From: Halothece sp. PCC 7418
Lineage (GTDB): Bacteria > Cyanobacteriota > Cyanobacteriia > Cyanobacteriales > Rubidibacteraceae
Direction of reading: 5' to 3'
Assembly: GCF_000317635.1 (NCBI RefSeq)
Contig: NC_019779.1
Coordinates: 744,001 to 808,000 of the forward strand
DNA: 64,000 bases
The notes under the pieces were generated by a model, which saw nothing but the letters and a program-made list of their open reading frames with translations, did no database searches and had not been told where the DNA came from. A program made the position numbers and the translations under genes. Of this stretch, positions 14,173 through 39,683 are shown in pieces; within the stretch, counting starts at the first letter, position 1; every line of letters begins with the position of its first letter.

Positions 14173-14174
14173 CC

Positions 14175-17980: not shown

Positions 17981-18060
17981 AAAAGTAGGGTGGGTAATGC
18001 CCACCACAATAAAATTTGATAGCTTAATCAAACAGTTAACATCAGGAACACTAAACTAAA

Positions 18061-18681: not shown

Positions 18682-18690
18682 GATAATCCC

Positions 18691-19656: not shown

Positions 19657-19658
19657 CT

Positions 19659-20090: not shown

Positions 20091-20091
20091 A

Positions 20092-20125
20092 TTCCCCCCT
20101 TTCAAAGGGGGTTTAGGGGGGATAA
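20092..20125. repeat. Dispersed palindromic repeat (CCCCCCTTT..AAAGGGGG type)
   Basis: TTCCCCCCTTTCAAAGGGGG is followed by TTTAGGGGGGA. The same C-tract/G-tract family occurs within cas3 (42282-42359), in the LD-carboxypeptidase gene near 57060 and, in a weaker form, near 21938. It lies between csx19 and the next gene and could act as a transcript hairpin. Confidence 0.75.
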
Positions 20126-20167
20126 AATATAACCAGACTTTTACAAATCGTATTAAAAAAAATAATC

Positions 20168-21205
20168 ATGAACCGTCCAAAACAACCCAATTCTCCGAAA
20201 CCTTACCAACTGGTTTCTCTCCCTTCCCAATCCCCGAATCGCAAGCAACCCGTAGGACATAAAAAGTTAAGAGATGACCGATTTCATGGTCGCATTTCTC
20301 TCCGTTTAAACGTCAAAACCAGTAGTTTTATTGCTTCTGGTGTGGTTGCAATGGGGAGTGATTTATCCTCGCAAACCCGTAATCTCCCTCTGGTTAAATT
20401 AGCCGTCGAATCGAATAATCAGTTAGTGATTCCAGGAAGTTCTCTCAAAGGAACAATTCGTGCGACTTACGAAGCCATGACACGCAGTTGTTTATGTAAT
20501 CATAGAGGAAAAAGAAACAACAATAAAATTCCAAAATATTATCAAGAATGTGAGTATAAAAAGAATGAAAAAAACATTAGCCAACTCTGTCCAGCTTGCC
20601 AAGTTTTCGGCGCAATGGGATGGCAAGGATTACTCTGGTTTCAAGATGCAATTCTAACAGAAATTCCCACACAAAAGGTAACAACAGGCTCTATGCCATC
20701 ATTATATTCTCCCTCTGATAAAAGATCAGCGTACTACAAAGATGGAAAATATGCAGGACGTAAGTTTTATTATCATGCGAAGGAAGTGGTAGAGGAAAAA
20801 GAATCAAGAGGGATTCCCGTTCAAAACATTACTCAAAATTCTATTTTTACCACTAAAATACGTTTCTGTAACCTCAAGCAAGAAGAGTTAGGAACTTTAT
20901 TTACGGTTCTGGGATATAATAAAAACTATCCTTTTGCCCTCAAAATTGGCGGTGGTAAGCCGATAGGGATGGGGACTTTAACGACAGAAATTATCGAAAT
21001 GGATTGTCCTGAAAATGTGCGCGATCGCTGCTTATCTTATACTCCCACTTCTGAACCCTTAACGGGAGATGCTCTAGAAAATTTTATCACGGAAGCGATT
21101 CAGAAAGCCCATCAAACAAAGCTGATTCAACAGCAACAACTGCAAGAATTACAACAAGTCCTTACCTATCCTACTGACAGAGAAGCGCCATCAGGAATGT
21201 ATTAA
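20168..21205 (+). CDS. Cas7-like RAMP protein with zinc cluster, type III-D
   Basis: The product has 345 residues. A basic, proline-rich tail of about 35 residues precedes the RAMP fold, which starts near FHGRISLRLNVKTSSFIASG. The core helix motif is LVIPGSSLKGTIRATYEAM. A cysteine group follows (CLCNHRG, then CEYKK, then LCPACQVFGAMGWQG), probably a zinc knuckle as in other type III Cas7 proteins. The glycine-rich segment is ALKIGGGKPIGMGTL. The last 45 residues are rich in glutamine (LIQQQQLQELQQVL) and probably helical. It should be a backbone or terminal subunit. The next gene starts two bases after its stop. Confidence 0.8.
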   Translation: MNRPKQPNSPKPYQLVSLPSQSPNRKQPVGHKKLRDDRFHGRISLRLNVKTSSFIASGVVAMGSDLSSQTRNLPLVKLAVESNNQLVIPGSSLKGTIRATYEAMTRSCLCNHRGKRNNNKIPKYYQECEYKKNEKNISQLCPACQVFGAMGWQGLLWFQDAILTEIPTQKVTTGSMPSLYSPSDKRSAYYKDGKYAGRKFYYHAKEVVEEKESRGIPVQNITQNSIFTTKIRFCNLKQEELGTLFTVLGYNKNYPFALKIGGGKPIGMGTLTTEIIEMDCPENVRDRCLSYTPTSEPLTGDALENFITEAIQKAHQTKLIQQQQLQELQQVLTYPTDREAPSGMY

Positions 21206-21207
21206 TT

Positions 21208-21851
21208 ATGGAGACAACAATTCAAGAAACAGTTAGCTTAAGTGATCATGAATGGGATATTGCCCACGCGATCGCGCGAGATTTGGTTTCAGAAAAAACT
21301 GATCACAATGAGGTCAAAAAAATCCTCGAATATCTCCGTAAATTTAAATCTAAACCGAAGTTAGGAGAAAGTTTTTTTCAATATCTAAAAACCCTTGCAA
21401 AGAAAGCAGATCAATTTGGACATAGCAAGCAAACTCCAATTTATTACCGCGCCATAGAAACTACCTGTAATAAGCATCTCATAGATTATCAAGATCAGCC
21501 TCAATTGATGTTAGAAATTCTCGGTTGGACGACTCGGCTGATGCGATATTATAAAAAAACGTCATTGGAAGAATTGCAAGCTATCAATGAATCAAAACAA
21601 TCAGAACGTCAAGCAGAAATTGAACAGGCTTCTGCTTCTCTAGAATTTAAGGAAGGACAAATAATAGAAGCAACTGTTGTCGGCTTTAACAAAGGGAATA
21701 AAGTCACCTATGAAATTACAGCAACGACACAAAGGTTAGCCCAAAAAGAACCCAAAAAATTAAATTATTATCAGAAGGACAAAAAGTTAACGTGGAAATT
21801 ACTCGCTTAGAAGAGGGAAAAATCAAAAAAATTAAATGTGTTAACCCTTAA
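21208..21851 (+). pseudogene. III-D operon protein with one-base frameshift near the C-terminus
   Basis: As written, the frame ends at 21810 after 200 residues. The sequence after an A6 run at 21754-21759 makes sense only in the -1 frame: there it reads LLSEGQKVNVEITRLEEGK and KIKKIKCVNP up to a TAA at 21849-21851. One additional A in the run would join this to EGQIIEATVVGFNKGNKVTY and give a continuous protein of about 214 residues. The C-terminal 60 residues then look like a small beta-barrel RNA-binding (S1/OB-like) domain. The N-terminal 130 residues are helical and not recognised. The break could be a real mutation, a slippage-controlled frameshift or a homopolymer error. It directly follows the last Cas7-like gene. 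Confidence 0.6.
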
Positions 21852-22273
21852 AATCATTTCGATTCATTCCGATGAGAATTAATTCATAGTCAAATCACTA
21901 AAACCTGTATTAACGGATAGCTGTGAATGAAACGACCCCGCCTTAGAAAGGGTGGCGAAGGGGGGTTAATTTACAATTCTTATGGAATTGCGATATGTAA
22001 TTGGAAACATTTATTTAATTAAATTTACAATTGATTTAAATTTTACCGTATCAATCAAGACAAGGAAAGCAAAATCCTCTCTCTGATTAAACTCCAGCTA
22101 ATCCTCCCCATCGGTCAAATTCACCTTTCATCACGGGATTTCTTGCAATTGTCCGTATATTTTGTAAGTATAAACAGTGGGCATTCGTCACTGAGAGAGA
22201 TTACAGTTATAGATATGGACGAAAAAAACACCACACGCCACCCCGTAGTCTTAAACAATGCGAGATCTCTATC
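21852..22273 (+). promoter_or_regulatory. cas6-cas4-cas1-cas2 upstream region
   Basis: There is no gene in these 422 bp. The start has a weak member of the C/G-tract repeat family (21938-21970). The middle is very AT-rich (around 22000-22045). Two sites of the form YTRTCCGTWWW occur: CTATCCGTTAA on the - strand at 21910-21921 and TTGTCCGTATAT at 22149-22160. The same motif occurs twice upstream of the WYL regulator gene at 43587 and 43659. I infer a shared operator. A separate promoter for the processing and adaptation genes is likely here. Confidence 0.5.
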
Positions 22274-23089
22274 ATGCCTTATAGCTTGATTCTAAACCTC
22301 ACCCCAATTTCTCCGATTTCTCCGAATTATCTCTGTGGACGGCATCTTCATGCTTTATTTCTAACCCTTGTTAGTAAAGTGGATCAAGATTTAGGGGATC
22401 GTCTTCATTCTTCTCAATCCAACAAACCTTTTACCCTATCTCCCTTACAACTGAATTATCCCAAACGTTACTCGCATCAATTGCAGTGGGAACATAAAAC
22501 TGCAATCAAAAAAGGAACTCCCTGCTGGTGGCGTATTTCTCTGTTAGATGATGAGTTATTTAGTCAACTCACCCAACTTTGGTTAAATCTCAATACTCAA
22601 CAATCTTGGCATCTTGGATCAGCAGATTTAAACATTAATAGTATTCAAGGAACATCCCATTCTCAACAGCCGTGGGGAAACAGTTGTTTATATCCTGAAC
22701 TTTATGAGGACGCGAGTGAAACGGAAACTACCTTTAAGTTTACTTTGGCAACCCCCGTGTCCTTTCGTCAAGGAAAACAAGATACCGCCCTTCCCACAGC
22801 AGAATTAGTTTTTAATAGCCTTTGGAAACGCTGGAATAAATACAGTGGAATTGAATTTTCTCAACTTCCCCTTGACCAGATCTTCCCTAGTTATTTTAAT
22901 ATCAAAACGGTCATTATATCTGATTCTCGCAGTAAATTAATTGGCTGTGTCGGCGAAATTAGTTATCGCGTCTTTGGAGACATTGATCCCCTACAGATTA
23001 AACAATTAAATACCCTTGCTGACTTTGCCCTTTACTCAGGAATTGGCAGAAAAAATACCATGGGCTTCGGTATGATTAGGAGGATTTAA
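22274..23089 (+). CDS. cas6: CRISPR pre-crRNA endoribonuclease Cas6
   Basis: The product has 271 residues. Cas6 cuts the array transcript at the base of the repeat hairpin. The two-RAMP architecture is visible, with an early GRHLHALFLTLVSKV helix carrying a candidate catalytic histidine, and the C-terminal glycine-rich loop YSGIGRKNTMGFGMIRR, the hallmark of the family. It is the only Cas6 in the window, so it probably matures RNA from both arrays, which share one repeat, and supplies both effector types. It is followed 4 bp later by cas4. The preceding 420-bp gap suggests transcription independent of the III-D operon. Confidence 0.88.
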   Translation: MPYSLILNLTPISPISPNYLCGRHLHALFLTLVSKVDQDLGDRLHSSQSNKPFTLSPLQLNYPKRYSHQLQWEHKTAIKKGTPCWWRISLLDDELFSQLTQLWLNLNTQQSWHLGSADLNINSIQGTSHSQQPWGNSCLYPELYEDASETETTFKFTLATPVSFRQGKQDTALPTAELVFNSLWKRWNKYSGIEFSQLPLDQIFPSYFNIKTVIISDSRSKLIGCVGEISYRVFGDIDPLQIKQLNTLADFALYSGIGRKNTMGFGMIRRI

Positions 23090-23093
23090 AACC

Positions 23094-23681
23094 ATGTCTG
23101 ATTATATTTCCATTGCATCCTTAAACCAATATAGTTATTGTCCTCATCGCTGGTGGCGGATGAGTTGTGCTGGAGATTTTGTCGATAATGAATATACGAT
23201 CGAAGGAACATCTCTTCATGATCGCGTTCATAATTTATCGGAAGCAATTGACCAAGAAATTTATCAAGTTCGCGCTATTTGGTTAAAGTCAGAAACCTAT
23301 CAACTGATTGGAAAAGCAGACCTCATCGAATCTAATTCTGGAGAGATTTATCCCGTAGAATATAAGCGCGGAAAACGAGGAGAATGGGATAACGATGAAC
23401 TGCAAGTTTGCGCCCAAGCACTATGTCTCGAAGAAATGACCAAACAAAACATTAGTATCGGCTATCTTTATTATGCCAGTTCCCATCGCCGTCAAGAAGT
23501 TTCCTTAGATTCAACGCTTCGGAAAATGACCCTTGACACCATTGAAGCCATTCAAACCCAACTCGAAAAAGGAACAAGACCGCAAGCTGTTTATAGTCCT
23601 CGTTGTAAAGGCTGTAGTCTTTATTCTCATTGTCTCCCCCAAGCAGCAAAAAAAGTCAACAAATATCAAGAGGAATTCTAA
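23094..23681 (+). CDS. cas4: CRISPR adaptation nuclease Cas4
   Basis: The product has 195 residues. Cas4 trims new spacers and helps select those next to a PAM. The four cysteines for the Fe-S cluster are present: C16 in YSYCPHRWW, and C171, C174 and C180 in RCKGCSLYSHC. The nuclease core shows GTSLHDRVH, LIGKADLIES and YPVEYKRGKRG (the D and E-x-K residues). Cas4 goes with type I, not usually with type III, so the cas6-cas4-cas1-cas2 block most likely belongs by origin to the type I-D system across array 2. cas1 begins two bases after the stop. Confidence 0.93.
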   Translation: MSDYISIASLNQYSYCPHRWWRMSCAGDFVDNEYTIEGTSLHDRVHNLSEAIDQEIYQVRAIWLKSETYQLIGKADLIESNSGEIYPVEYKRGKRGEWDNDELQVCAQALCLEEMTKQNISIGYLYYASSHRRQEVSLDSTLRKMTLDTIEAIQTQLEKGTRPQAVYSPRCKGCSLYSHCLPQAAKKVNKYQEEF

Positions 23682-23683
23682 TT

Positions 23684-24688
23684 ATGGGAACCGCTTACAT
23701 TACTCAAGAAGACGCATTTATTGGCAAAACCGACGAACGGTTAACCGTTAAAGCCGATCAGAAAAAACTCCTTGATGTTCCTCTCTTAAAACTAGAAGGA
23801 ATCGTCATTCTCGGGCGTGCTACGATTTCTCCCATGGTCGTGAATGAGTTATTACAGCGTCATATTCCCTTAACCTTTCTCACTCATACTGGACGTTATT
23901 TAGGTCGTCTTGAACCCGAATTTACGAAAAATATTTTTGTACGAAAAGCGCAATGGTCAGCAGCAGAAAATACCCCGCAAGCGATTCATTTAGTGCAAAG
24001 TTTTGTTCGCGGAAAACTGAAAAATTATCGTCACCTTTTACAGCGTAGAGTTAGAGACTCCTCTCAACTCAACTTCGATCAAGAAATTCTCCATCTAGAA
24101 CAAGCGATTAAGCCCATTGCAAACACGGAAAATATTGATAGTTTAAGAGGATTAGAAGGGAGAGGAAGTGCTGTTTATTTTGGCACATTCCAACAACTGA
24201 TCACCAACTCTGAATTTACTTTTCAAGCCCGCCGTCGTCGCCCTCCCACTGATCCGATTAATTCTTTACTGAGTTTAGGCTATTCCCTGTTGCGCCATGA
24301 TATTCAAAGCGCAGTTAATATTGTCGGGTTTGATCCGTATTTAGGTTATCTTCATGTCGAACACTATGGAAGACCTGCTTTAGCATTAGATTTAATGGAA
24401 GAATTCCGTCCTTTAGTAGTTGATGCGCTTGTCTTAAAAATGATCAATAAGCAACAATTAGCGGTAGATGATTTTGAAACTGAACCGATTAGTAAGGCAG
24501 TTTCTTTAACGAAAGAAGGCTTAAAAACTTTCCTGCGGTCTTATGAAGAGAAAAAGCAGTCATCCTTTAAGCATCCAGTTCTCAAACGGAAGTGTACTTA
24601 TCAAGAAGCCTTTGAAATTCAAGCACGGTTAGTTGCTAAATATTTGATGGGAGAAACCGACAAATACCCACCACTCCTTATCAAGTAA
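23684..24688 (+). CDS. cas1: CRISPR integrase Cas1
   Basis: The product has 334 residues. Cas1 forms the integrase with Cas2 that inserts spacers at the leader end. The metal ligands are in place: E158 in LRGLEGRGSAVYFG, H224 in GYLHVEHYGRPALALD, and the acidic group D236-E240 in LDLMEEFRPLVVD. No reverse transcriptase is fused to it. I start at ATG 23684; the upstream frame to 23630 overlaps cas4. The arrays themselves show that this integrase has been active (158 spacers) and hint that it sometimes chooses the spacer-side site about one helical turn too far in. Confidence 0.96.
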   Translation: MGTAYITQEDAFIGKTDERLTVKADQKKLLDVPLLKLEGIVILGRATISPMVVNELLQRHIPLTFLTHTGRYLGRLEPEFTKNIFVRKAQWSAAENTPQAIHLVQSFVRGKLKNYRHLLQRRVRDSSQLNFDQEILHLEQAIKPIANTENIDSLRGLEGRGSAVYFGTFQQLITNSEFTFQARRRRPPTDPINSLLSLGYSLLRHDIQSAVNIVGFDPYLGYLHVEHYGRPALALDLMEEFRPLVVDALVLKMINKQQLAVDDFETEPISKAVSLTKEGLKTFLRSYEEKKQSSFKHPVLKRKCTYQEAFEIQARLVAKYLMGETDKYPPLLIK

Positions 24689-24717
24689 GGATGACGAAGG
24701 ACTAATGACTAAAAACT

Positions 24718-24990
24718 ATGTATGTTGTCATTTGTTACGATATCTCTGACGATAAACGTCGCACCAAAATCCATAAGATCCTGAAATCTTACGGACAGTG
24801 GATGCAATACAGCATCTTTGAATGTGAATTAACTAAAGCCCAATACGCGAAGTTGCGCGATCGGTTGAGTAAACTGATTAAAGCCGAAACCGATAGCATT
24901 CGTTTCTATTTCCTCTGTCAGTGTTGTCAGGGGAAAGTGGAACGCATTGGCGGGGAGGAATTGCGGGATAATACAATTTTCTTTGCTTAG
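24718..24990 (+). CDS. cas2: CRISPR adaptation protein Cas2
   Basis: The product has 90 residues, begins MYVVICYDISDDKRRTKI and shows the ferredoxin-like fold pattern with the conserved D8. It dimerises between two Cas1 dimers. The gene ends CTTTGCTTAG and the leader of array 2 starts directly after the stop. The last 12 nt of this gene also occur at the outer end of the leader of array 1, showing that the duplicated block included the end of cas2. Confidence 0.96.
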   Translation: MYVVICYDISDDKRRTKIHKILKSYGQWMQYSIFECELTKAQYAKLRDRLSKLIKAETDSIRFYFLCQCCQGKVERIGGEELRDNTIFFA

Positions 24991-25220
24991 AGAATTGCGC
25001 GACGGGGGTGCTGTGTAATGTGAACTGATTCCGCATTAGCGCGATCGCGCTTTCACTCTGGCTTTCAGCCTCGACTCGCCCCTAACCTATCGCGCACCTG
25101 TCACAGTAACGGTTTTAGCGATTTGGGGTTGTTTTTTCTGATCGCATTTGCTATGATTATTTCAGATTCGCGCAACTGGACTTTGAAAACTAAATATGAC
25201 AACGGTTCTCAAGGCCTGCG
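24991..25220 (+). promoter_or_regulatory. Leader of CRISPR array 2
   Basis: The leader is 230 bp between the cas2 stop and the first repeat. It is homologous to the leader of array 1 in inverted orientation, with two conserved blocks (distal about 50 nt, proximal about 125 nt) and a different middle that here contains GCGATCGC and TTCACTCTGGCTTTCAGCC. The proximal block should hold the array promoter and the integrase docking site. Confidence 0.9.
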
Positions 25221-28200
25221 GTTTCAATAAACCTAATCCCTTCCTAGGGATTGAAACTAACATCTTGAATCTTAAGAGATGGTTTCTTACGTTTCAATAA
25301 ACCTAATCCCTTCCTAGGGATTGAAACTCAACCCACGAAGATAGCGAAATTGAGAAATTAAATGTTTCAATAAACCTAATCCCTTCCTAGGGATTGAAAC
25401 TCAATTGGTCGAGATGATTCTCTAAATACTCCCCTAGTTTCAATAAACCTAATCCCTTCCTAGGGATTGAAACTTGCCTTTTATCTTATCAGAAATCCCG
25501 ATATTTGTTTCAATAAACCTAATCCCTTCCTAGGGATTGAAACATCCCATGATTAAGAAAGCAGTTAGAGATGGGAATTTGTTTCAATAAACCTAATCCC
25601 TTCCTAGGGATTGAAACAAATAGAGAAAAACAATACAGAGGAGAATAATAATGTTTCAATAAACCTAATCCCTTCCTAGGGATTGAAACTAGAATCTTGC
25701 CATAAAGTGAAAGCGACAATAGGAGTTTCAATAAACCTAATCCCTTCCTAGGGATTGAAACTCGCGCTGCAAAGTGTGAATGTGGTGGTGGAATGAATGG
25801 TTTCAATAAACCTAATCCCTTCCTAGGGATTGAAACTTCAGATAGCCAGTTTTCGCAGCCTACCGCATCCATGTTTCAATAAACCTAATCCCTTCCTAGG
25901 GATTGAAACTCTACCAGTGTGCTACCATTTTCTACCTGATTTAATGTTTCAATAAACCTAATCCCTTCCTAGGGATTGAAACACATGATCCTTAAAAACA
26001 TAGGCTGATAATCTCCAATGTTTCAATAAACCTAATCCCTTCCTAGGGATTGAAACCCTACATATTTAAGGAAAATTAATGGATAAACAGGTTTCAATAA
26101 ACCTAATCCCTTCCTAGGGATTGAAACGGATTTCTTGTAAGAGATTGTTTACCTCTGGGTCTTGAGAGTTTCAATAAACCTAATCCCTTCCTAGGGATTG
26201 AAACGTAGCAGTAAAAAAGACAGAAATTAAGCAACTGGTAGTTTCAATAAACCTAATCCCTTCCTAGGGATTGAAACTTTAATGCTCTAGTAGATTCTGA
26301 ACGGTTAATGGGGTTTCAATAAACCTAATCCCTTCCTAGGGATTGAAACATTTTCTATCAATTGAAAGTCACCCTCATCGCTAGTTTCAATAAACCTAAT
26401 CCCTTCCTAGGGATTGAAACGCGATGTTGACCTTCTAGTCAATGATAGCACGACTGTTTCAATAAACCTAATCCCTTCCTAGGGATTGAAACATCTTCAA
26501 ATCATTAAGAAATCAGCTTCCAATTATGTTTCAATAAACCTAATCCCTTCCTAGGGATTGAAACGAATTAGGAAGCTCTATTCTACCATGGCTCTACAAT
26601 TTTGTTTCAATAAACCTAATCCCTTCCTAGGGATTGAAACTCAATTGGTCGAGATGATTCTCTAAATACTCCCCTGTTTCAATAAACCTAATCCCTTCCT
26701 AGGGATTGAAACCTCTTTGGCTTGACTGGTGGATGAACAACCGCGAGTTTCAATAAACCTAATCCCTTCCTAGGGATTGAAACAAAAGAATTAATATTTA
26801 TCCCTCCAGGAGAGTTTTGTTTCAATAAACCTAATCCCTTCCTAGGGATTGAAACAAACTGGAGACTATGCAGCGCGTAACTTCGCAGCTTATCGTGTTT
26901 CAATAAACCTAATCCCTTCCTAGGGATTGAAACAGCATAAAGCCCCAGCGCCAATCTTGCCTGCTTCGTTTCAATAAACCTAATCCCTTCCTAGGGATTG
27001 AAACGTTGATGATTTGAATCTAGAAAAGTATGGGCAGTGTTTCAATAAACCTAATCCCTTCCTAGGGATTGAAACTATTATTCGGGTTTTCTGACATAAT
27101 TTCCCTCAAAAGTTTCAATAAACCTAATCCCTTCCTAGGGATTGAAACTCTTCACAATGTTTATCCCTCTCTGGGTCTTCCCCAACGACGTTTCAATAAA
27201 CCTAATCCCTTCCTAGGGATTGAAACATATTTATAAATGTGATTAAGAAATCACACAAAGTTTCAATAAACCTAATCCCTTCCTAGGGATTGAAACTTAT
27301 CTTTACTGGGTTTTATTGTCTTGAGAACCGTGTTTCAATAAACCTAATCCCTTCCTAGGGATTGAAACATAAACATTCCTTAGCTGAAAAATACAAGATA
27401 ACCAGTTTCAATAAACCTAATCCCTTCCTAGGGATTGAAACTCAGACTATCACTGATGGCGGTATGTTCAATCCGGTTTCAATAAACCTAATCCCTTCCT
27501 AGGGATTGAAACTTCCTGAGTACAAAGCAGGAAGAAAGGAGAAGCCCGAGTTTCAATAAACCTAATCCCTTCCTAGGGATTGAAACTTTCATCGAGGAGT
27601 AAATGAGTTTCCCTAGATAACGAAGTTTCAATAAACCTAATCCCTTCCTAGGGATTGAAACAACGGTATTTTTGGTTTGAAGCGTTCTTTGAGCGAGTTT
27701 CAATAAACCTAATCCCTTCCTAGGGATTGAAACCTCCTGCATTCTTCGGTAATCTTCAACCACATCGGCAACAGTTTCAATAAACCTAATCCCTTCCTAG
27801 GGATTGAAACGGGATTAAGAATGCACGAAGCATTAAATCTAACGTGTTTCAATAAACCTAATCCCTTCCTAGGGATTGAAACTTGCATCTTTGATTGAAT
27901 TAAACATTTTTCAATGTTTCAATAAACCTAATCCCTTCCTAGGGATTGAAACATAGGATTGATTTTCGATTAACTCATCAACAGAATGCGTTTCAATAAA
28001 CCTAATCCCTTCCTAGGGATTGAAACATGACTATGAGGGAATTTTAGCCATGAGTAAAGAATGTTTCAATAAACCTAATCCCTTCCTAGGGATTGAAACT
28101 AATTTAATTAAAGAACAAATTATTTCAGGATTGTTTCAATAAACCTAATCCCTTCCTAGGGATTGAAACTTATCATATTTACATGATGATGAACCATTAA

Positions 28201-31200
28201 TTGTTTCAATAAACCTAATCCCTTCCTAGGGATTGAAACCGAAATTGTATGGTACACACTCGATTGATAGTGAATTTCGGGTTTCAATAAACCTAATCCC
28301 TTCCTAGGGATTGAAACAAAGCAAAACTTGGGAACGATTATTCTAAAGTATTGTTTCAATAAACCTAATCCCTTCCTAGGGATTGAAACGTTCTATAAGA
28401 ATTTTCCCCTGTTTCGTAATAAGACAGTGTTTCAATAAACCTAATCCCTTCCTAGGGATTGAAACGCGCATACATCAAGAAACTGGTCTCGATTGATTTT
28501 GTTTCAATAAACCTAATCCCTTCCTAGGGATTGAAACCCAGTCGTCGCAATAATTTCAGCCCCAGAAAAAACATCAGTTTCAATAAACCTAATCCCTTCC
28601 TAGGGATTGAAACTGCATATAAAGTCAGTTTTCTGTTATTGCCATTCGTTTCAATAAACCTAATCCCTTCCTAGGGATTGAAACTCCCTTCATCCCATTC
28701 AAACTCAAGCATCAGCCTCTACAGTTTCAATAAACCTAATCCCTTCCTAGGGATTGAAACATTAGTGCTGCCATTAGTGGTTGTGGGCAAATTCAGTTTC
28801 AATAAACCTAATCCCTTCCTAGGGATTGAAACTCCTTTTGGTATAAAGGAGAGTATAATGAATTCATGTTTCAATAAACCTAATCCCTTCCTAGGGATTG
28901 AAACAATGATATGGTCACTAGTATTGGCACTATTACCACGTTTCAATAAACCTAATCCCTTCCTAGGGATTGAAACAAATCACAATATACTACTGGCACA
29001 ATAGTTAATTCTTCTAAAGAGTTTCAATAAACCTAATCCCTTCCTAGGGATTGAAACAAATCACAATGAATCAGGCAATTGTAAAAGCTAATGTTTCAAT
29101 AAACCTAATCCCTTCCTAGGGATTGAAACTGGAAAATAATCAATTCCACCAATGATAAACGAAGTTTCAATAAACCTAATCCCTTCCTAGGGATTGAAAC
29201 TAATTCAATCAAAGACGCTAAACTTGCGATTCAAAAGTTTCAATAAACCTAATCCCTTCCTAGGGATTGAAACTAGCAATTATTTTGTGAGAGAAAAATT
29301 GCCACAATAGTTTCAATAAACCTAATCCCTTCCTAGGGATTGAAACTCTACATGAGCCACATTCTCTGTTTTTCCTTTATGGTTTCAATAAACCTAATCC
29401 CTTCCTAGGGATTGAAACTTTGTAAACTTCATTAACTTGTCGATCAGTGTATCGTTTCAATAAACCTAATCCCTTCCTAGGGATTGAAACATACTTATAA
29501 AACGCATCGTTTATAACACAGTTTCAATAAACCTAATCCCTTCCTAGGGATTGAAACTTCCCATATTTCCCGCAAAAAGACACAAATGTTTGTTTCAATA
29601 AACCTAATCCCTTCCTAGGGATTGAAACGATGTGAATCATTTTTATTCCTTAAATCATATTTGAAGTTTCAATAAACCTAATCCCTTCCTAGGGATTGAA
29701 ACTGGGTATATTTCAGCACCAGCACCTGATGAAAAGTTTCAATAAACCTAATCCCTTCCTAGGGATTGAAACTCTTTTGTGTATATCAATATTTTTTGAT
29801 ATGGCTGGTTTCAATAAACCTAATCCCTTCCTAGGGATTGAAACAAAATTCGGTGTGCTCCTAGTAAAATCTCAACTGCAGTTTCAATAAACCTAATCCC
29901 TTCCTAGGGATTGAAACTTGATAATCCCAATTAACAGGGGGATTATAGGAGGGTTTCAATAAACCTAATCCCTTCCTAGGGATTGAAACACTAATTATGA
30001 CACAAAATAATCAACAGAATAAAAGGTTTCAATAAACCTAATCCCTTCCTAGGGATTGAAACCGCGATGCTGGAACGCCAGACTATACCAATTTTTGGTT
30101 TCAATAAACCTAATCCCTTCCTAGGGATTGAAACTAATAAATCATTTAACATTTCTACAGAAACCGCAGGTTTCAATAAACCTAATCCCTTCCTAGGGAT
30201 TGAAACTAAGATTCTTGTTTTTTTAAATATTCGTCAATCGTTTCAATAAACCTAATCCCTTCCTAGGGATTGAAACTCTTTAGAATCTGAAATTCATGCT
30301 ACAGATAAAGTGTTTCAATAAACCTAATCCCTTCCTAGGGATTGAAACCTCTGTGTCTGTTGTAATAATGCCATATACTTTTTCCCAGTTTCAATAAACC
30401 TAATCCCTTCCTAGGGATTGAAACTGAAATGAATGATTGGTTAGGATTATTGCCTTGGGGTTTCAATAAACCTAATCCCTTCCTAGGGATTGAAACCTTC
30501 AACGGGCTTCCCGTGAGCCACAATCGCAAAAAGTTTCAATAAACCTAATCCCTTCCTAGGGATTGAAACTGCGTGGTCGTAAATCCCATTGAAAAGAGCA
30601 TTTCTCGGTTTCAATAAACCTAATCCCTTCCTAGGGATTGAAACTTAATTTTCCAAACGCCCCGACAATACAATTGTCGTTTCAATAAACCTAATCCCTT
30701 CCTAGGGATTGAAACCTTAAAATACTCAAAATTCATACAACGAGGGAAGTGTTTCAATAAACCTAATCCCTTCCTAGGGATTGAAACACAACAGAACAAA
30801 ATAATGACGGTAGCACCAAAAGTTTCAATAAACCTAATCCCTTCCTAGGGATTGAAACTTAATTATTGATTATTTTTTTCATAAAAATCAATAGTTTCAA
30901 TAAACCTAATCCCTTCCTAGGGATTGAAACGATTTTTTGTTGGTTCTAAATAAGATAATCTTAAGTTTCAATAAACCTAATCCCTTCCTAGGGATTGAAA
31001 CCTAATTTTACTTTTGTTTTACCTTCGCTAAGCAGTTTCAATAAACCTAATCCCTTCCTAGGGATTGAAACTTAACATCTTCTAAAAGACCATCATGATA
31101 ATTTTGTTTCAATAAACCTAATCCCTTCCTAGGGATTGAAACCAAATAATTGTACTAATTGATCTCGATTTGGCTTATGTTTCAATAAACCTAATCCCTT

Positions 31201-33947
31201 CCTAGGGATTGAAACAATTGGATATCATGGAGCTTGCCGTTTCATGTTTCAATAAACCTAATCCCTTCCTAGGGATTGAAACTACAGGCATTACGCGGAA
31301 TTCCTCTTTGTTTTCCGCGTTTCAATAAACCTAATCCCTTCCTAGGGATTGAAACAGGCTCATGAGACGCTTTATGTGTACGAGTGGAACAATGTTTCAA
31401 TAAACCTAATCCCTTCCTAGGGATTGAAACCCTGTTGTTAAATCAGATGACTCATCCGAACAAGGTATTGTTTCAATAAACCTAATCCCTTCCTAGGGAT
31501 TGAAACTTCAATTGAAATTGTTTTTTTAATTTCAACGGAGATTGCAGGTTTCAATAAACCTAATCCCTTCCTAGGGATTGAAACATTAAGGTGCCCTTCT
31601 TTTAATTCGGAGTATAGTAGTTTCAATAAACCTAATCCCTTCCTAGGGATTGAAACTAGGATGAAACCGCAATCTTCGGGTAAGTTGAGATCTTTGGTTT
31701 CAATAAACCTAATCCCTTCCTAGGGATTGAAACGTTTTAGATTGCGGTTCGGTGAAGAAAGGTGGTTCGTTTCAATAAACCTAATCCCTTCCTAGGGATT
31801 GAAACCAAAGAAGTTGACAAACTTCTAGACCGCTGGGTTCGTTTCAATAAACCTAATCCCTTCCTAGGGATTGAAACAGATAACTATGCTGTCTATCACG
31901 AATTGAACTCTAGTTGTTTCAATAAACCTAATCCCTTCCTAGGGATTGAAACCCCAAATCCTCAATTATTATTCCATCGTATTCTTGGTTTCAATAAACC
32001 TAATCCCTTCCTAGGGATTGAAACTAAGCAATGATGATGGAGATGGGAAATTTTTAAACAGAGTTTCAATAAACCTAATCCCTTCCTAGGGATTGAAACC
32101 CAAACCACATAAGGATGGGATGATTAATGTTGTCATAAGTTTCAATAAACCTAATCCCTTCCTAGGGATTGAAACTTTTTCAATGCTAAATGTCCTGAAG
32201 CTCGTCCTCCAAGTTTCAATAAACCTAATCCCTTCCTAGGGATTGAAACTCATAACCGAGCGCAGAAAATAAATCTAACATGATAGTTTCAATAAACCTA
32301 ATCCCTTCCTAGGGATTGAAACGGGAGATATTTTAGGTTTGATTACATCATATTTAATGAAAAGTTTCAATAAACCTAATCCCTTCCTAGGGATTGAAAC
32401 ATAAAATCAGTTGTGCAATGAGATGGGAAAGATGGTTTCAATAAACCTAATCCCTTCCTAGGGATTGAAACTTGGCTGCTTCCTCATAGGATAAGGAATA
32501 CCCGATGTTTCAATAAACCTAATCCCTTCCTAGGGATTGAAACACATTGAAAAGATAGCATAAGAAAGAATCTCCTTACTGTTTCAATAAACCTAATCCC
32601 TTCCTAGGGATTGAAACAATCTTAACGTAGTGCCCTTCTTCTGTGGTGACGTAATGTTTCAATAAACCTAATCCCTTCCTAGGGATTGAAACTGATGATG
32701 TTTTTTTCTTGCTCTGTCATTGGTCTGTTTCAATAAACCTAATCCCTTCCTAGGGATTGAAACTGATTTGCGAATATATATCGAATATTCATCGCTATCA
32801 ATCTCGTTTCAATAAACCTAATCCCTTCCTAGGGATTGAAACTTTCTTGCATGGGATGTGTTTCCTTTTTGTTTGTTGGTTTCAATAAACCTAATCCCTT
32901 CCTAGGGATTGAAACAGATTGAAAGTTACCAGCTACAAGGAATTATTCTGTTGTTTCAATAAACCTAATCCCTTCCTAGGGATTGAAACCTCAGAGGCTA
33001 CAGTGAGGAATCCGAGTTGCATATCAGTTTCAATAAACCTAATCCCTTCCTAGGGATTGAAACATCACACTACGGCTTAGACATTTTGAAGGCTAAAGCG
33101 GGTTTCAATAAACCTAATCCCTTCCTAGGGATTGAAACTTCTTGGCCTTCTACCTCTATGCCTAGGTAGCAGTTTCAATAAACCTAATCCCTTCCTAGGG
33201 ATTGAAACAACTCTGAATAGAGCTTTGGAGACCCTTTACGAGGGTACCAGTGTTTCAATAAACCTAATCCCTTCCTAGGGATTGAAACTTCTGCACGGTC
33301 AATGCGTGGGCGGGGTGACCCAAGTTTCAATAAACCTAATCCCTTCCTAGGGATTGAAACGCCCAATCCTTATTGTAATGTGTAGGGAAGAATTGTTTCA
33401 ATAAACCTAATCCCTTCCTAGGGATTGAAACTGTAGGAGAAAAGAAAAAAGCCCGACTCGTTAAAGCGTTTCAATAAACCTAATCCCTTCCTAGGGATTG
33501 AAACTAAAATCCTATATAGAATTAAAACTTCTATCTTAATTGTTTCAATAAACCTAATCCCTTCCTAGGGATTGAAACCCATTTATTGTGAGGGTTTCTT
33601 CGTTCCTCCAGATAGCCGAGTTTCAATAAACCTAATCCCTTCCTAGGGATTGAAACTGTGGTATATGTTTCTTTGAGCGCGATCGTTTAATCCCTAGTTT
33701 CAATAAACCTAATCCCTTCCTAGGGATTGAAACTCATATTGGAGGCGCACCTTATACGCATCCCCAGGTTTCAATAAACCTAATCCCTTCCTAGGGATTG
33801 AAACACAAGGGAATTAGCACCCACAGCACCCGCCGAACAGTTTCAATAAACCTAATCCCTTCCTAGGGATTGAAACATCTGGGATTCCCTCCACATCAAC
33901 TCCTAAATCTGTTTCAATAAACCTAATCCCTTCCTAGGGATTGAAAC
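25221..33947 (+). CRISPR. CRISPR array 2, 120 repeats
   Basis: I count 120 repeats of 37 nt and 119 spacers of 30-44 nt. The repeat is the same as in array 1, here on the + strand: GTTTCAATAAACC at the start, AATCCCTTCCTAGGGATT as the hairpin and ATTGAAAC as the tag. The leader lies on the left, so the oldest spacers are near 33.9 kb. Repeats look identical throughout, including the last. Spacers 3 (25401-25436) and 20 (26641-26675) are the same sequence apart from one final A. Spacers 52 and 53 (28977-29020, 29058-29092) share their first 10 nt. Array 2 runs into the convergent type I-D operon, whose last gene ends 46 bp beyond the final repeat. Confidence 0.98.
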
Positions 33948-33993: not shown

Positions 33994-34734
33994 TTATCCA
34001 AACTGGTAAGCCATATTGATAGGAAGTTTAAGGGAAGAATCGTTAGTAAAAGTATAGTAATCCCCTCGTAAATTCACATTACAAATCAAACTCACAGGTG
34101 GCATATTGACGACATCGTAGCTAATTACCTGATTGGTAAACATGACATCGAGTGGGTTGAGAGGATGAGGATAAGTAAAGGTTTGATTGCTGTATTTTTT
34201 AGCAACAGATAATTCTTCTAAAAAGAGTTCTGCTTTACTCATCCATTTTCCTAAACGAATAAACTTGGGAAGTCGCCATTGCCATTTTTGAGAAGTGGTT
34301 TCCTTTTGCAAAGATTGTTCAGAAATGATGTAGCATTCAAAAATACTTTCAGGTGTAATTTCTTTGGTGCGTCCATAGCTGGGGATATTTTTCTGCGTCT
34401 TTTGCATTTCCACATGATAGCGGTTATCAGCATATTTCCAAGTATTTAACACCGTGGCGTGAGAAACGGGATAAGCAGGAGTGACATAAATTTCTTGTTG
34501 ATTTAAGGGGGTAAGATGTTGTTCATATTGCGGAATTTGTTCTGAACAAAAGTAACGATAACTTTCTTCTTTGGAAACGGTTGTTCCGTAAGTTTCACTA
34601 TCTACAAAGCCTAAAGCATAAGTGAGGGCATAATTATGTAAAATGGGTTCGGTTTCGTAGAGTCGTCCGAGTTCTCTAGTGGCAAAATAGAGGCTGTCTT
34701 GGAGTTCAATTTGACAGCGATAGATGTGGGTCAT
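33994..34734 (-). CDS. csc1: Type I-D Cascade subunit Cas5 (Csc1)
   Basis: The product has 246 residues and begins MTHIYRCQIELQDSLYFATR. The order, with csc2 and cas10d upstream, and the N-terminal phrase with RELGRLYETEPILHNYALTY mark Csc1, the Cas5-type subunit that binds the crRNA 5' handle in type I-D Cascade. The start at 34734 is preferred to an upstream in-frame site at 34779, which only adds sequence of the intergenic leader. It is the last gene of the I-D operon and faces the distal end of array 2. In typical I-D loci cas6 would follow directly; here array 2 intervenes and cas6 is on the other strand about 11 kb away. Confidence 0.88.
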   Translation of the reverse strand: MTHIYRCQIELQDSLYFATRELGRLYETEPILHNYALTYALGFVDSETYGTTVSKEESYRYFCSEQIPQYEQHLTPLNQQEIYVTPAYPVSHATVLNTWKYADNRYHVEMQKTQKNIPSYGRTKEITPESIFECYIISEQSLQKETTSQKWQWRLPKFIRLGKWMSKAELFLEELSVAKKYSNQTFTYPHPLNPLDVMFTNQVISYDVVNMPPVSLICNVNLRGDYYTFTNDSSLKLPINMAYQFG

Positions 34735-34811
34735 GATTCTACCTTGATTCAAAATGAATTGATAATTTTGTAAGGACAAATTGTGATTTGCCCCTACATT
34801 TTGTTTACTGG

Positions 34812-35825
34812 TTATGATTTCTTGGCAGAAGATTTACTCTTTTTCCCAATATGTTTTTCGGCGTAGGTTTTCGCTTCTGCGTCTGCTTGTTGGAGGATAG
34901 ACATAATCCCTTCTGCGGTTTTTGTGAGGGCTTTTACTTCTTTCAATAGGGGGGTAAATTGCTCACCAATAAAATCGGTATGGACAATAAATTCATCTTC
35001 CATCAGGGCTTGAATTGCGTTAGTTGCTTCGTCACAAATTGTTTTTTCTTCGAGCGGATCAAGAGAGTTTAAAACCTCTTCAGGAAGGCGATCATAAATC
35101 GCTTGTGTCCAGCGCAAATTACTAACAATTTCACCATCTGCAAAAACAACCCCTAACAGTTCATTTCTCACTCGTCCTGTGCGCGTGGTTTGTGCGCCAT
35201 AATGACGGGTACGGAGGATGTTATTGAACACATAAAGAAAACTCGCTTCAGTGGGGTCTTTTAGGGTGACAATGCTGGGGAAAAAGACTTGCGGACGAAT
35301 ATGATCTTGTTGGTTGATGCGACTGGTCACTTCTCCTGGTTTAGATCCAGGTTCTCCTTTTGAGGACATGGTACCGTTTTCATAAGGGGCGTTGAGGGTA
35401 AAGGTTTCATGAGATTGATCAAAGGGAGTGATGGAATAAGCGGTATCCACAACCACTTTTGATTTCTCTGAACCAGAATCACCAATAGCGAAACCATAGA
35501 TAATACAGTCGGGGTTATCCATTCCAAAATTGACATTATATTCACATTCTTCGGCGGTGATGAGGTTATACTGACGGAGAAGTTCTCTTCCCACAAGACG
35601 TTCTGGGGTAGATTGTTTCCGTTTAAAAAGAGAAAGACGACTGATCGGGTTTGGGTTATTAATTCCAGCGCGAACACGGGCTTTATTTAGTTCGCCATCA
35701 GTTTGGAAAAGAGGATAAGATTCGGTGATGCGAAGGGTGAGAAAGTGGACGTATTTTCCCATGGGTTTATAGGGAATTTCGGTGTGGAAGTGTTTAGTAG
35801 AGTTGATCGTTTTTAGTAAAGACAT
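34812..35825 (-). CDS. csc2: Type I-D Cascade backbone subunit Cas7 (Csc2)
   Basis: The product has 337 residues. It forms the crRNA-coating backbone of I-D Cascade. Family features are TLRITESYPLFQTDGELNKA near the N-terminus, a cysteine-containing EECEYNVNFGMDNPDCIIYG segment, and FVFADG-like VVFADGEIVSNLRW after an ARHYGAQTTRTGRVRNEL-type stretch. The C-terminal tail is lysine- and serine-rich (KKSKSSAKKS). It is separated from csc1 by 77 bp and from cas10d by about 100 bp of tandem heptamer repeats. Recognition rests on these motifs and on operon context. Confidence 0.88.
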   Translation of the reverse strand: MSLLKTINSTKHFHTEIPYKPMGKYVHFLTLRITESYPLFQTDGELNKARVRAGINNPNPISRLSLFKRKQSTPERLVGRELLRQYNLITAEECEYNVNFGMDNPDCIIYGFAIGDSGSEKSKVVVDTAYSITPFDQSHETFTLNAPYENGTMSSKGEPGSKPGEVTSRINQQDHIRPQVFFPSIVTLKDPTEASFLYVFNNILRTRHYGAQTTRTGRVRNELLGVVFADGEIVSNLRWTQAIYDRLPEEVLNSLDPLEEKTICDEATNAIQALMEDEFIVHTDFIGEQFTPLLKEVKALTKTAEGIMSILQQADAEAKTYAEKHIGKKSKSSAKKS

Positions 35826-35831
35826 GGGTTC

Positions 35832-35940
35832 TCCTTTTTGTTATTTGTTATTCGTTATTTGGGGAACAGGAAACAGGGAATAAGCAATTGGTAACTGGTA
35901 ACTGGTAACTGGTAACTGGTCACTGGTCACTGGTCACTGT
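35832..35940. repeat. Tandem heptamer repeats between cas10d and csc2
   Basis: GTTATTT-type units near 35838-35862 are followed by about four GGTAACT and three GGTCACT units from 35889. Short tandem heptamers of this kind are common between cyanobacterial genes; similar ones occur near 47570 and 52303. The last units form the 3' end of cas10d. Confidence 0.8.
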
Positions 35941-38900
35941 TTTCTTTGTCTTGTTCCAGGCGATACAGAAATTCACAGGTATCTTTGAGAAGGTTTAATT
36001 GTCGTCCTGCAAGACGGGCGCGATCGCGCGAGAAACTCTTTTCAAAGACTTCTTCCACAAAATAACGGGCGAAGTCTAAAACCGCTTGACGTTCCTTTTC
36101 TCGTTGAGAAATTACCCAGCGTCCCTCTGCGGTGGAAGCGCGAACTCTGTCCATTAACTTGTTCACTTCTGCTGCGACAACTGCGACTAAAGTTTCTCCT
36201 GTGAAGACACTGTTATCTGCTTTCAAGATTGTGTCTGAAGCAACTTCTATGGGTTTCAAGATGGCGTTGGCTTTCGGGTTATACATTTTATTGGCGCGAT
36301 AGAAACGACGAAACAGTCGCGTTAGTTCTTTGGGATGATTCATGGGTGATTTGGTATCATTCACAGTGAGTTTCTCCGATTGATATGTGACATAAGGATC
36401 AAAACAAGGATAAAGGTGGTAAGTGTAAAGACGAATCCTCGCTAGACTAGGACTTTCTACGTCTTTCCCCCGTGTCCATCGTTTGAGGTAAGAAAAGACA
36501 TAGAGAGGACTGGTTTCTAAGTCGGTGGCGAGTTCGCTGAGTTTTCCCCAGTTGGGGGTATAGCCTGATTTACTGCGTTTCGGGTTAACATCGAGATGAA
36601 TGGTGTAAGCTGCGGTGAGGGCGTTTAAGGGAGAGGGATGATTGTCCCAACCGTTTACAATGGCATCAAGGCGAACGCGATCGCGCTTTGTCAGAACTCT
36701 TAACGCTTGCGGAGGACTGTCTAAAAACACAGTTTCTTCAAACTCCGCGCCATCGGTATAAGGGGGAATGGGAGATTCCGAAACAACAGTTTTTACGTCT
36801 AAAATAAGAGGGAAGGTGAACGCTAACCAGGCTGGCATTACCCAAGATTCGGTATCGGTGGGATCGCGTCCTGGGGGAAGGGCGATAAAGTAGAAGGTTA
36901 GGGGTTTATCATCGGGATAGGACAGTTTGAAGGTACGGTCTTTTTCTGTGTCTAAGGTTTCGTCAATGAGGAAACTATCGACATTTTGATAGGAAGCGCG
37001 ATCAAAGTTTGCTTTCAAATCATCATCAATGAAATGTTTACGGATAGTGGTATCAAAGCGGGTTTGGGCGATATTGGTGTAGGCTTTTTGGAGGAAGTTA
37101 TTCGTCTCAGGGGTAAAGTAATAAGTGGGATAGAAATAGAGATAGCGATACTTTCCATCCTCAAACCGTTTCCCCACCGCTTGCGTTTGGTTCATCAAGA
37201 TTTGTCGTAACATCATCTCTGTCCCTGCAATACTGGAGATATTGCGTTTCGCGTTCGATCCGCCTAACATTTGTTTATTGGTGTAAACTTGTGGCGTGAA
37301 TAAGACAGCAGACTCCATCTGTTCACTGACAGAATAGGGAGAATGCGAGATGGAACAAATCAGTTGACGACCGCGCCCAGATTTTTTAGCCTTGTTGTAA
37401 TGGTCTAACTCTTGGCGAAAGATATCCGTTTCAGAAACAGTCGTTTCTTGCGGTAACATCACCACCCGACTTACCCAGTCACGAACATCATCCCACCCGT
37501 CTGGAATCTGATATTGTTCCACAATGGGTTTAATCTGTTTATGAACAAAGTTAATCAGCGTTTCCCCAATGTCTCGGATATCTTCTGGAGCAATGCCTGG
37601 GTTATGCTGGATGTATCGGGAGGCGAGATAATACCAATCATAGGGAACACCACCTGTATTTCCTTTGCGTTTGTGTTCTTTCAGGGTTTCGTTAATGCGT
37701 TGAATTTCTCGAATTACAGGGATATCTGTTTCTAGTTCCCAAAATTTAGCAATTTCTAGGATTAAATTAAGGTCTGGCGGTTTCGGAAGCGTCTTATCTT
37801 GCTTACAAGCCGTTTTAATATGATCAAGCGTTTCTCCCCAAATCTTGCGAGTGATGACATCCCCAAACTCTGCGAGTTGGTCAATGCGAATATCATCTTC
37901 AAACTGAAAGTTATAATCTGAAGAAAGAATCCCTTGCTGTTGATAGCTGACAAGGTTATCACTTCGCTTTTTCGCTGATGATGCTTTTCCATCTCTGAGG
38001 ATGCGTAAAGTTGCATCAAGGGCGACTTCCATCAAGGCTTTTTCATCGAAGAAGAGATCATAATATTCGGCGTATTTCATCCCTTTTCCGTCTCTCCCAA
38101 ACCCTGTTTGTTTTGCTTGGAGTTGACTGCGACAGAGAGATTTAATCGTTTCTACGACACGCTGCGGTAAGGTTTCAGGGGAAATAGAAGGCGTTTCTCG
38201 TTCGCATAAATAAATCACCCCTGTGGGAAGATAAAGTAAGGGTTCATAACCTGCTTCTGTGTGTGCTTCCATGACTGCATTGTTGACGACATTGGTTAAA
38301 ACGCCTCGGTTTTCTGCGATGCTGTGATAGGTGAGGTTTAACTGTCCGTCGCTGAGGGTGTGTAAAATGTCGGTTAAGGATTGTTTGGTCGCATCTTGGG
38401 GATGTTTGATGATAGATGCAAATCGATCGCCGAGACAGGTAAGATCAGATAAACACTCAATCGTTTGGTCGCGCAGTTCAGGCTGTAAATTATTCTCAGA
38501 TAAGTTCAGATTGGTGTCATTGCGTCGCTGGGTATTGTAAGCAATGTATAGTAAATCATCGCGATAGGTTTCCCACTGCTGGGGAGAGTCGGGAAACAGG
38601 AATTGATCTAACCCTAATGTAGGAACTAAGATGTTAAAGATTTCTCGATGTTGCGCGATCGCGCAGTCTTTACGAATATCTTGTTCAATGTCTGCTTGAA
38701 TGCGTTTATAGTCTTCTGGTATTTCAGGGAATAAACGATAGTCAAACTTTTCAAAATCATGGAGAATCAGAGAAGCAATTCCGATCCTTCTTTCAGTTTC
38801 TTTGACATATCGTTTTGTGTTTGTGTTTAACTTAGCGAGTCGTTTCTGAATCAAGTTAGCAGGGAATAAGCCATTGAGTAAATGTGTATTTAAAGACTGA

Positions 38901-39238
38901 TCAGCAGCGTTATCCCGACGAACTCTTTTCTTTCCTTGTGCTAAACGTTTCGCGTCGATTTGTTCAAAAAAGTTTCCGCCTTTAGCTGTTACACCGATTG
39001 CATACTGGAGAAGATTGGGTAAGACATATTCGCTAAAATCAATCATAACGCGATCGTCTGGATTTTGTTGCGCGATCGCGCTTTGTAGCAGTTTTAGCGT
39101 CAATAGCTTTGGGGAAGAATCTTCAGAGACTTCTGTTTCTTCCTCATCCGATAAACCTAAATATTCTAGGGAACTAGAATCGAGATCAAGTTCTAATTCT
39201 TCATCAAATAAATTTAATTGTGAATCTTGATTAGTCAT
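35927..39238 (-). CDS. csc3: Type I-D large subunit Cas10d (Csc3) with HD domain
   Basis: The product has 1,103 residues. Cas10d is the large subunit of type I-D Cascade and carries the HD nuclease that in other type I systems sits on Cas3. After an acidic N-terminal tail, the HD domain shows H119 in LNTHLLNG and H160-D161 in SLILHDFEKFDYR. I find no GGDD, so cyclic oligoadenylate synthesis is not expected. The region PTGVIYLCERE lies in the middle and the C-terminal third is helical. The gene overlaps the end of hepT by 8 bp, so its translation is tied to that toxin gene. The length is normal for cyanobacterial Cas10d. Confidence 0.9.
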   Translation of the reverse strand: MTNQDSQLNLFDEELELDLDSSSLEYLGLSDEEETEVSEDSSPKLLTLKLLQSAIAQQNPDDRVMIDFSEYVLPNLLQYAIGVTAKGGNFFEQIDAKRLAQGKKRVRRDNAADQSLNTHLLNGLFPANLIQKRLAKLNTNTKRYVKETERRIGIASLILHDFEKFDYRLFPEIPEDYKRIQADIEQDIRKDCAIAQHREIFNILVPTLGLDQFLFPDSPQQWETYRDDLLYIAYNTQRRNDTNLNLSENNLQPELRDQTIECLSDLTCLGDRFASIIKHPQDATKQSLTDILHTLSDGQLNLTYHSIAENRGVLTNVVNNAVMEAHTEAGYEPLLYLPTGVIYLCERETPSISPETLPQRVVETIKSLCRSQLQAKQTGFGRDGKGMKYAEYYDLFFDEKALMEVALDATLRILRDGKASSAKKRSDNLVSYQQQGILSSDYNFQFEDDIRIDQLAEFGDVITRKIWGETLDHIKTACKQDKTLPKPPDLNLILEIAKFWELETDIPVIREIQRINETLKEHKRKGNTGGVPYDWYYLASRYIQHNPGIAPEDIRDIGETLINFVHKQIKPIVEQYQIPDGWDDVRDWVSRVVMLPQETTVSETDIFRQELDHYNKAKKSGRGRQLICSISHSPYSVSEQMESAVLFTPQVYTNKQMLGGSNAKRNISSIAGTEMMLRQILMNQTQAVGKRFEDGKYRYLYFYPTYYFTPETNNFLQKAYTNIAQTRFDTTIRKHFIDDDLKANFDRASYQNVDSFLIDETLDTEKDRTFKLSYPDDKPLTFYFIALPPGRDPTDTESWVMPAWLAFTFPLILDVKTVVSESPIPPYTDGAEFEETVFLDSPPQALRVLTKRDRVRLDAIVNGWDNHPSPLNALTAAYTIHLDVNPKRSKSGYTPNWGKLSELATDLETSPLYVFSYLKRWTRGKDVESPSLARIRLYTYHLYPCFDPYVTYQSEKLTVNDTKSPMNHPKELTRLFRRFYRANKMYNPKANAILKPIEVASDTILKADNSVFTGETLVAVVAAEVNKLMDRVRASTAEGRWVISQREKERQAVLDFARYFVEEVFEKSFSRDRARLAGRQLNLLKDTCEFLYRLEQDKENSDQ

Positions 39239-39683
39239 TTTCTTCCTCTAATTGATCAATATAATCGAGAATTTCGCGCATATAAACGGGATAGTATTTT
39301 AAGCACTTCTCAATCGCTAAAAAGACTTGATAATTTTCAATATCTAGATACAAATGAACTAAGATATTTCTCATTCCTGCTGCATTGGCTAAGGTTTTCC
39401 CTGTTTCTTTTGTTAAGATATCGTGCGCGATCGCGTTTAGAAAATACTCTTTATTTGTCAACTCATGCTTGCTGGTAATCAATCCTAATTTTGCAAACAA
39501 ATACTTGTTAATATCTAAGGCTGCTTCCGTACAAAGTTGCACCAGTCTTTCAGTGACCAGTTGAGTATCAAAATTATTCTGATACTCTTCAAATGTCAAC
39601 GACTCAAACTGCTTAAGACGCTGAAGATACTTCCGAATCGCTTGTAACCGTGCTAAGATAACTTCTGGTTCGATCTGACTCAT
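39231..39683 (-). CDS. hepT: HEPN-domain toxin HepT
   Basis: The product has 150 residues, all helical. The HEPN RNase motif is R105-N-x3-H110 followed by Y112 (GMRNILVHLYLDI), as in HepT toxins, which cut tRNA or other RNA and are silenced by AMPylation of the motif tyrosine. The gene overlaps the upstream antitoxin gene by 4 bp (ATGA) and the downstream cas10d by 8 bp. It is therefore embedded in the type I-D operon, which is not the standard gene order. It could stabilise the operon by addiction or add an abortive arm; both are inference. Confidence 0.88.
   Translation of the reverse strand: MSQIEPEVILARLQAIRKYLQRLKQFESLTFEEYQNNFDTQLVTERLVQLCTEAALDINKYLFAKLGLITSKHELTNKEYFLNAIAHDILTKETGKTLANAAGMRNILVHLYLDIENYQVFLAIEKCLKYYPVYMREILDYIDQLEEEND

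Follow-up and report, generated by a model that had tools for sequence, protein, structure and literature searches.

Partial duplication of the previous spacer in CRISPR arrays of Halothece sp. PCC 7418 and related loci points to out-of-register spacer insertion

CRISPR arrays and cas genes at the locus

The window analyzed here is a 64,000-nt stretch of Halothece sp. PCC 7418 (contig NC_019779.1, positions 744,001-808,000 of the forward strand), and all coordinates below are window positions. It carries two CRISPR arrays with a common 37-nt repeat, GTTTCAATAAACCTAATCCCTTCCTAGGGATTGAAAC. CRISPR array 2 (25221-33947, forward strand) consists of 120 identical 37-nt repeats and 119 spacers, and CRISPR array 1 (7854-10744, reverse strand) of 40 identical repeats of the sequence found in array 2 and 39 spacers. 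With up to 3 mismatches allowed, the whole genome contained 120 + 40 copies of this repeat, indicating that no third array is built on it. The leader of array 2 (24980-25220, forward strand, outer limits approximate) and that of array 1 (about 10745-10986, reverse strand) are block-wise homologous, and since these homologous leaders adjoin spacer 1 in both arrays, low-numbered spacers are the newer ones. Spacers 3 (25401-25436, 36 nt) and 20 (26641-26675, 35 nt) of array 2 have the same sequence and probably represent one protospacer acquired twice with one end fixed.

The adaptation genes lie on the forward strand and comprise cas4 (23094-23681; PADLOC Cas4d, 6e-82; NCBIfam TIGR00372 above cut-off), cas1 (23630-24688) and cas2 (24718-24990; PADLOC Cas2d, 1e-41; TIGR01573), with cas6 (Cas6d) at 22274-23089 on the same strand. 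The cas1 product is an I-D type integrase (NCBIfam TIGR04093 cas1_CYANO, 439 bits, cut-off 385), for which PADLOC scores the Cas1c model slightly higher than the Cas1d model, and its gene probably starts later than the listed ORF, at about 23687. The type I-D effector genes cas5d, cas7d, cas10d and cas3d, with smaller ORFs between them, occupy 33994-43250 on the reverse strand. With a Cas1 of the I-D (CYANO) family, and with Cas4, Cas2 and the I-D effector genes close by, we assigned the adaptation module to type I-D.

The forward strand also carries, at 11282-21810, a type III-D effector module that includes genes for CARF-RelE and Csx21. The III-D and I-D modules (11282-24990 and 33994-43250) are accompanied by one Cas4-Cas1-Cas2 set and two identical-repeat arrays, and on this basis the two effectors may share one memory. 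Near array 1, a 502-aa ORF (5995-7503) encodes a TnpB-family RNA-guided nuclease (NF040570 above cut-off; PADLOC Cas12u/Cas12f models).

Shared starts of adjacent spacers in the window

Spacer 52 of array 2 (28977-29020) is the longest of that array at 44 nt, and its older neighbour, spacer 53 (29058-29092, forward strand), has 35 nt. The initial annotation had noticed that both begin with the same 10 nt and had read this as the trace of an insertion on the spacer side about 10 nt inside the spacer that was then the first. Comparison within array 2 bore out the observation: the two spacers have identical first 10 nt, AAATCACAAT, and then diverge. The duplicated unit consists of a repeat and these 10 nt. 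Its left copy covers 28940-28986 on the forward strand (repeat 28940-28976 plus AAATCACAAT) and its right copy 29021-29067 (repeat 29021-29057 followed by the opening 10 nt of spacer 53). Between them lies what would be the new spacer proper (28987-29020, nt 11-44 of spacer 52), whose 34 nt are a normal length for the array; the sequence comparison suggests a border at nt 10/11. The number of spacer pairs on which the annotation had based its estimate, about 158, needs correction to 156 actual adjacent pairs in both arrays (118 + 38). Its judgement that chance identity of 10 nt is very unlikely holds, as about 0.001 such cases are expected in 156 adjacent pairs from the rate among non-adjacent pairs of the survey described below (2/266,243 for at least 10 nt).

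The initial annotation named this one case, and array 1 adds two more. Spacer 18 (A1-18; 9437-9478, reverse strand, 42 nt) has 11 leading nt in common with spacer 19 (9367-9399), of which 8-9 nt may be the true duplication and the rest a chance match. Spacer 26 (8847-8891, reverse strand, 45 nt) has 8 leading nt in common with spacer 27 (8776-8809). When each of the 158 spacers was compared with every other (12,403 pairs), with the whole-spacer re-acquisition of spacers 3 and 20 in array 2 set aside, just these 3 pairs had 8 or more leading nt in common. Each consists of adjacent spacers, of which the one nearer the leader is long (44 nt for spacer 52 of array 2, 42 and 45 nt for spacers 18 and 26 of array 1).

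Survey of related arrays

We then collected arrays beside related Cas1 genes. A Cas1 search of 388 genomes from the class gave 122 genomes with a match at 1e-60, and stretches around 90 matches were taken; a second search of 388 genomes from the order gave at least 188 with a match at 1e-90, and stretches were taken for 60 of the 79 chosen. The genome collection contributed a further 80 loci out of 106, and the set comprised 276 sequences in all. Arrays of at least 4 repeats were detected by a script anchored to 37-nt repeats (the 37-nt consensus was already found in 183 of 198 tandem arrays before anchoring) and oriented by the conserved repeat end. Removal of 15 tandem arrays that were unoriented or non-CRISPR, and of arrays having at least 30% of their spacers in common with a kept array (253 to 177), left 177 arrays with 7,228 spacers, the window included. 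Identical pairs, pairs with at least 25 nt in common at either end and adjacent pairs repeated from another array were also left out. Among the 156 arrays of 8 or more spacers, the last two repeats had more mismatches than the first two in 67 and fewer in 9, and this decay at the distal end supports the orientation.

At least 8 leading nt were common to 16 of 7,032 adjacent pairs, against 0.26 expected from non-adjacent pairs (10/266,243). The newer spacer had at least 42 nt in 15 of these 16, although only 194 adjacent pairs have a newer spacer of that length. Where the older spacer had at least 42 nt, 0 of 195 such pairs had 7 or more leading nt in common, and shared 3' ends showed no excess among adjacent pairs of the 177 arrays. 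The 15 cases are spread over 12 loci with 12 different repeats, namely the window and eleven related loci. In every case the flanking repeats show zero mismatches, and the remainders after removal of the shared start are 31-38 nt, which are ordinary spacer lengths. The misfit among the 16 is pair 33/34 of locus L222 (14 nt shared; 36 and 35 nt), which looks like two spacers from related protospacers. Below the threshold, pair 39/40 of locus L139 (6 nt shared, newer spacer 45 nt) may be a further case.

Without the window, the count was 12 of 6,876 pairs, compared with 3 of 156 in the window alone (Fisher p 0.004), but this apparent excess carries a selection bias, the window having been picked for this very feature. 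Duplication accounts for 15 of the 200 long spacers (at least 42 nt), and 185 lack it. As comparators, 10 plasmid regions (16 CRISPR arrays of mixed types, 307 spacers; two non-CRISPR tandem repeats dropped) yielded one pair sharing 7 nt and zero pairs sharing 8 nt or more, though just about 0.6 would be expected from these 307 spacers.

Protospacers and pre-insertion arrays

A phage BLAST search with array 2 (25258-33200) and array 1 returned 4 weak matches, none covering the three long spacers. Eight of the 15 long spacers were each represented by an exact 19-mer in a scan of viral contigs, with 0 matches for every one. The plasmid BLAST search with array 2 (25258-33200 only) returned 5 records at 70-76% identity, which are probably repeats of other arrays, and no usable protospacer. 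In 6 genomes of the genus, a scan for the 34-nt remainder of spacer 52 that tolerated up to 3 mismatches recovered its own site alone. Five relatives in the genus offered no pre-insertion array: at the same tolerance, the repeat is absent from four of them and occurs once in the fifth. Likewise, the older spacer of any of the 15 cases without its newer neighbour was absent from all surveyed loci.

Proposed insertion mechanism and step size

Spacer insertion involves two joinings, at the leader-repeat and repeat-spacer borders, after which repair copies the repeat between them, as described in a review (PMC10212523). For spacer 52, Cas1-Cas2 would have joined the new fragment properly at the leader-repeat border, and the second joining would have landed past the repeat end, about 10 nt into what was then the first spacer (today's spacer 53). 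Filling of the gaps would then copy the repeat plus 10 nt, and the copied 10 nt would precede the new 34-nt spacer. In general form, a second joining x nt into the first spacer would copy the repeat plus x, and x foreign nt would lead the new spacer. This model predicts adjacency, direction, sharing at the start only and excess length, and all four were found; no rival considered below predicts all of them. The insertion slip proposed in the initial annotation is supported by the adjacency, the long newer spacer, the sharing at the spacer start only, the normal remainder and the recurrence of the pattern with 12 different repeats. The phenomenon is real, and we class it as a naturally occurring form of an integration error already known. 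We consider it highly probable that spacer 52 arose by an out-of-register insertion, with the leader-side joining correct and the spacer-side joining about 10 nt too deep.

The shared lengths were 8 nt in three cases, 10 nt in three, 11 nt in eight and 13 nt in one, with 11 of the 15 at 10-11 nt. Since chance can extend a shared stretch, we also weighed the 15 cases by ordinary spacer lengths, which gave 9.65 for steps of 10-11 nt, 3.0 for 8 nt and 1.3 for 9 nt. The remainders of A1-18 and of spacer 63 of locus L056 are 31 nt, unless the match is partly due to chance. Steps of 5, 6 and 7 nt were seen in 8, 2 and 2 adjacent pairs against 7.8, 2.1 and 0.8 expected, with no clear excess, and no adjacent pair shared 15 to 24 nt (pairs with 25 nt or more having been dropped beforehand).

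Under this model the spacer-side cuts would lie 8-11 nt too far, mostly by one helical turn. Since 10-11 nt is about one turn of B-DNA, the preferred step suggests a second active site meeting the same helix face one turn on. Three of the 15 cases are at 8 nt, short of a full helical turn, so a one-turn rule would not be strict.

Two further loci touch on the model. In locus L265, spacer 28 (48 nt, 11 nt shared) has its nt 14-48 recurring reversed in spacer 20 (36 nt). The ends of spacer 20 fall within 2 nt of the borders predicted for spacer 28, which is consistent with the model. The two appear to be one fragment captured twice in opposite orientations, once with an 11-nt extra start. In the array of locus L089 (176 spacers), at repeats 64-66, a 36-nt insert is enclosed by the two copies of a 99-bp direct duplication (repeat, spacer and 27 nt of the following repeat), and one repeat is cut to 27 nt and flanked by two copies of one spacer. 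There the second joining would have occurred inside the second repeat, 10 nt before its end. We lean, by a little, towards the view that unmodified I-D integrases err in quanta, with a spacer-side jump of about one turn (+10-11 nt), including the landing in the second repeat of L089. If this is true, natural arrays are a readable record of the Cas1-Cas2 ruler stepping along DNA, and about 0.2% of memories bear a foreign first turn that blunts them.

The guide RNA from spacer 52 would bear 10 nt of spacer 53 right after the handle. In type I guides, the handle-adjacent start is the seed and the PAM side. With the wrong first 10 nt in the seed, guide 52 would probably be poor for I-D interference.

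Alternative explanations

The strongest rival accepts the same insertion error and has the second cut drawn by a chance site-like sequence instead of a whole-turn slip of the ruler. In its favour, the aberrant type II-A attack hit a guanine 8 bases into the spacer (PMC6895254), and type V-A Cas1 alone used several spacer-side sites with a common 4-nt motif (PMC13034035). A purine follows the shared stretch in 12 of our 15 cases, among which no clear sequence motif was found at the slip site. Against it, the older spacers do not begin more like the repeat end than other spacers do (2.5 against 2.75 of 11 positions identical), and the lengths bunch at 10-11 nt (11/15) rather than spread. We regard this version as a possible though less favoured account of where the cut falls.

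Gene conversion, or copying between neighbouring repeats, might instead have overrun by 10 nt and overwritten the start of a spacer, as identical repeats could recombine and whole-unit duplications are present in some surveyed arrays. Such copying does not predict a longer newer spacer or any preference for 10-11 nt, and it would also hit non-adjacent pairs and spacer 3' ends, neither of which was found, making it very improbable. Similarly improbable is that related protospacers with the same PAM-proximal sequence gave both spacers. Near-identical re-acquisitions do occur, as in spacers 3 and 20 of array 2, and pair 33/34 of L222 may be such a case, but in the 15 cases the likeness ends abruptly after 8-13 nt and goes with extra length in the leader-proximal member alone.

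Chance identity of unrelated spacers does produce matches among non-adjacent pairs (10 of at least 8 nt, 2 of them of at least 10) and could explain any single pair, but it is statistically refuted for the whole set and is the least probable reading of all, given the 3 adjacent cases in the window and the 15 in the wider set, always with a long newer spacer, against a mean of 0.22 and a maximum of 3 such cases in 2,000 shuffles of spacer order within arrays.

Comparison with known systems and significance

In Streptococcus thermophilus type II-A with mutated repeats, attack 8 bases inside the spacer, with 'partial duplication of the spacer', was observed in vitro and in vivo (Kim et al. 2019, PMC6895254). 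The cases described here resemble that system in that the attack would fall inside the first spacer, with the leader-side site used first and the second site set by a ruler, and the 8-nt class recalls the 8-base attack of the mutated repeats (PMC6895254). They differ from it in having intact repeats, a type I-D Cas1, an error fixed in natural arrays and a step of mostly 10-11 nt. For wild-type type II-A, the aberrant attack was reported to be absent (PMC6895254). Rulers are also known in types I-B and I-E, where the distance from a repeat motif sets the spacer-side cut and altered repeats move it (refs 52 and 56 cited in PMC6895254). Those experiments used engineered repeats, and we found no natural record of such slips described with them. 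In type V-A, the spacer-side sites loosen when Cas2 is omitted (PMC13034035).

Adaptation in Synechocystis type I-D uses Cas4, Cas1 and Cas2, as the set in the window would, and the commonest spacer has 35 nt (review PMC10212523). We found no mention there of duplication of the start of the previous spacer, and the one Synechocystis array that we analyzed beside its I-D Cas1 (16 spacers) showed no partial duplication. In the open-access literature, with subscription papers mostly outside the scope, we found no report of natural arrays with partial spacer duplication. The error is documented here in natural arrays whose repeats are intact; its laboratory form in mutated type II-A repeats was already known (PMC6895254).

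How Cas1-Cas2 sets the distance between the insertion sites, and hence the constant repeat length, is only partly understood. Natural errors of unmodified systems give a rate (15/7,032 pairs), a direction and a step size, and comparing the starts of adjacent spacers is an easy sequence-based check for any large array collection. The slip would account for some abnormally long spacers (15/200) and predicts guides with a wrong seed; when spacers are matched to viruses, these long spacers should be compared without their first 8-11 nt.

Other possible insertion irregularities

Three other forms of slip were considered and set aside. For leader-side slips, in which the end of a spacer would equal the end of the leader, the matches in the first set (133 arrays) were at most 5 nt, except for spacer 1 of locus L120, whose final 16 nt match the final 16 nt of the leader and which is possibly a leader-side mis-insertion. 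For slips of one nt, identity of the first base was 0.2845 at lag 1 against 0.263-0.276 at lags 2-10, yet the newer spacers concerned were not longer. For inward slips that shorten the repeat, 2 of 6,874 internal repeats diverged at the 3' end only and 5 at the 5' end only (3 of these 5 being first repeats), and just the repeat in L089 was clear.

A second class of error was seen at the other end of the spacer. In 15 of 7,228 spacers, none of them in the window, the 3' end is identical to the opening 6-11 nt of the array's own repeat, against about 1.8 expected from the repeat starts of other arrays. Examples are spacer 40 of locus L129, spacer 17 of L241, spacers 49 and 55 of L107 and spacer 4 of L166. 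These spacers also tend to be long, 11 of the 15 having at least 40 nt compared with 7.9% of all spacers. Simple target-site duplication does not explain this class; speculatively, a fragment was perhaps nicked out after half-site joining and reinserted.
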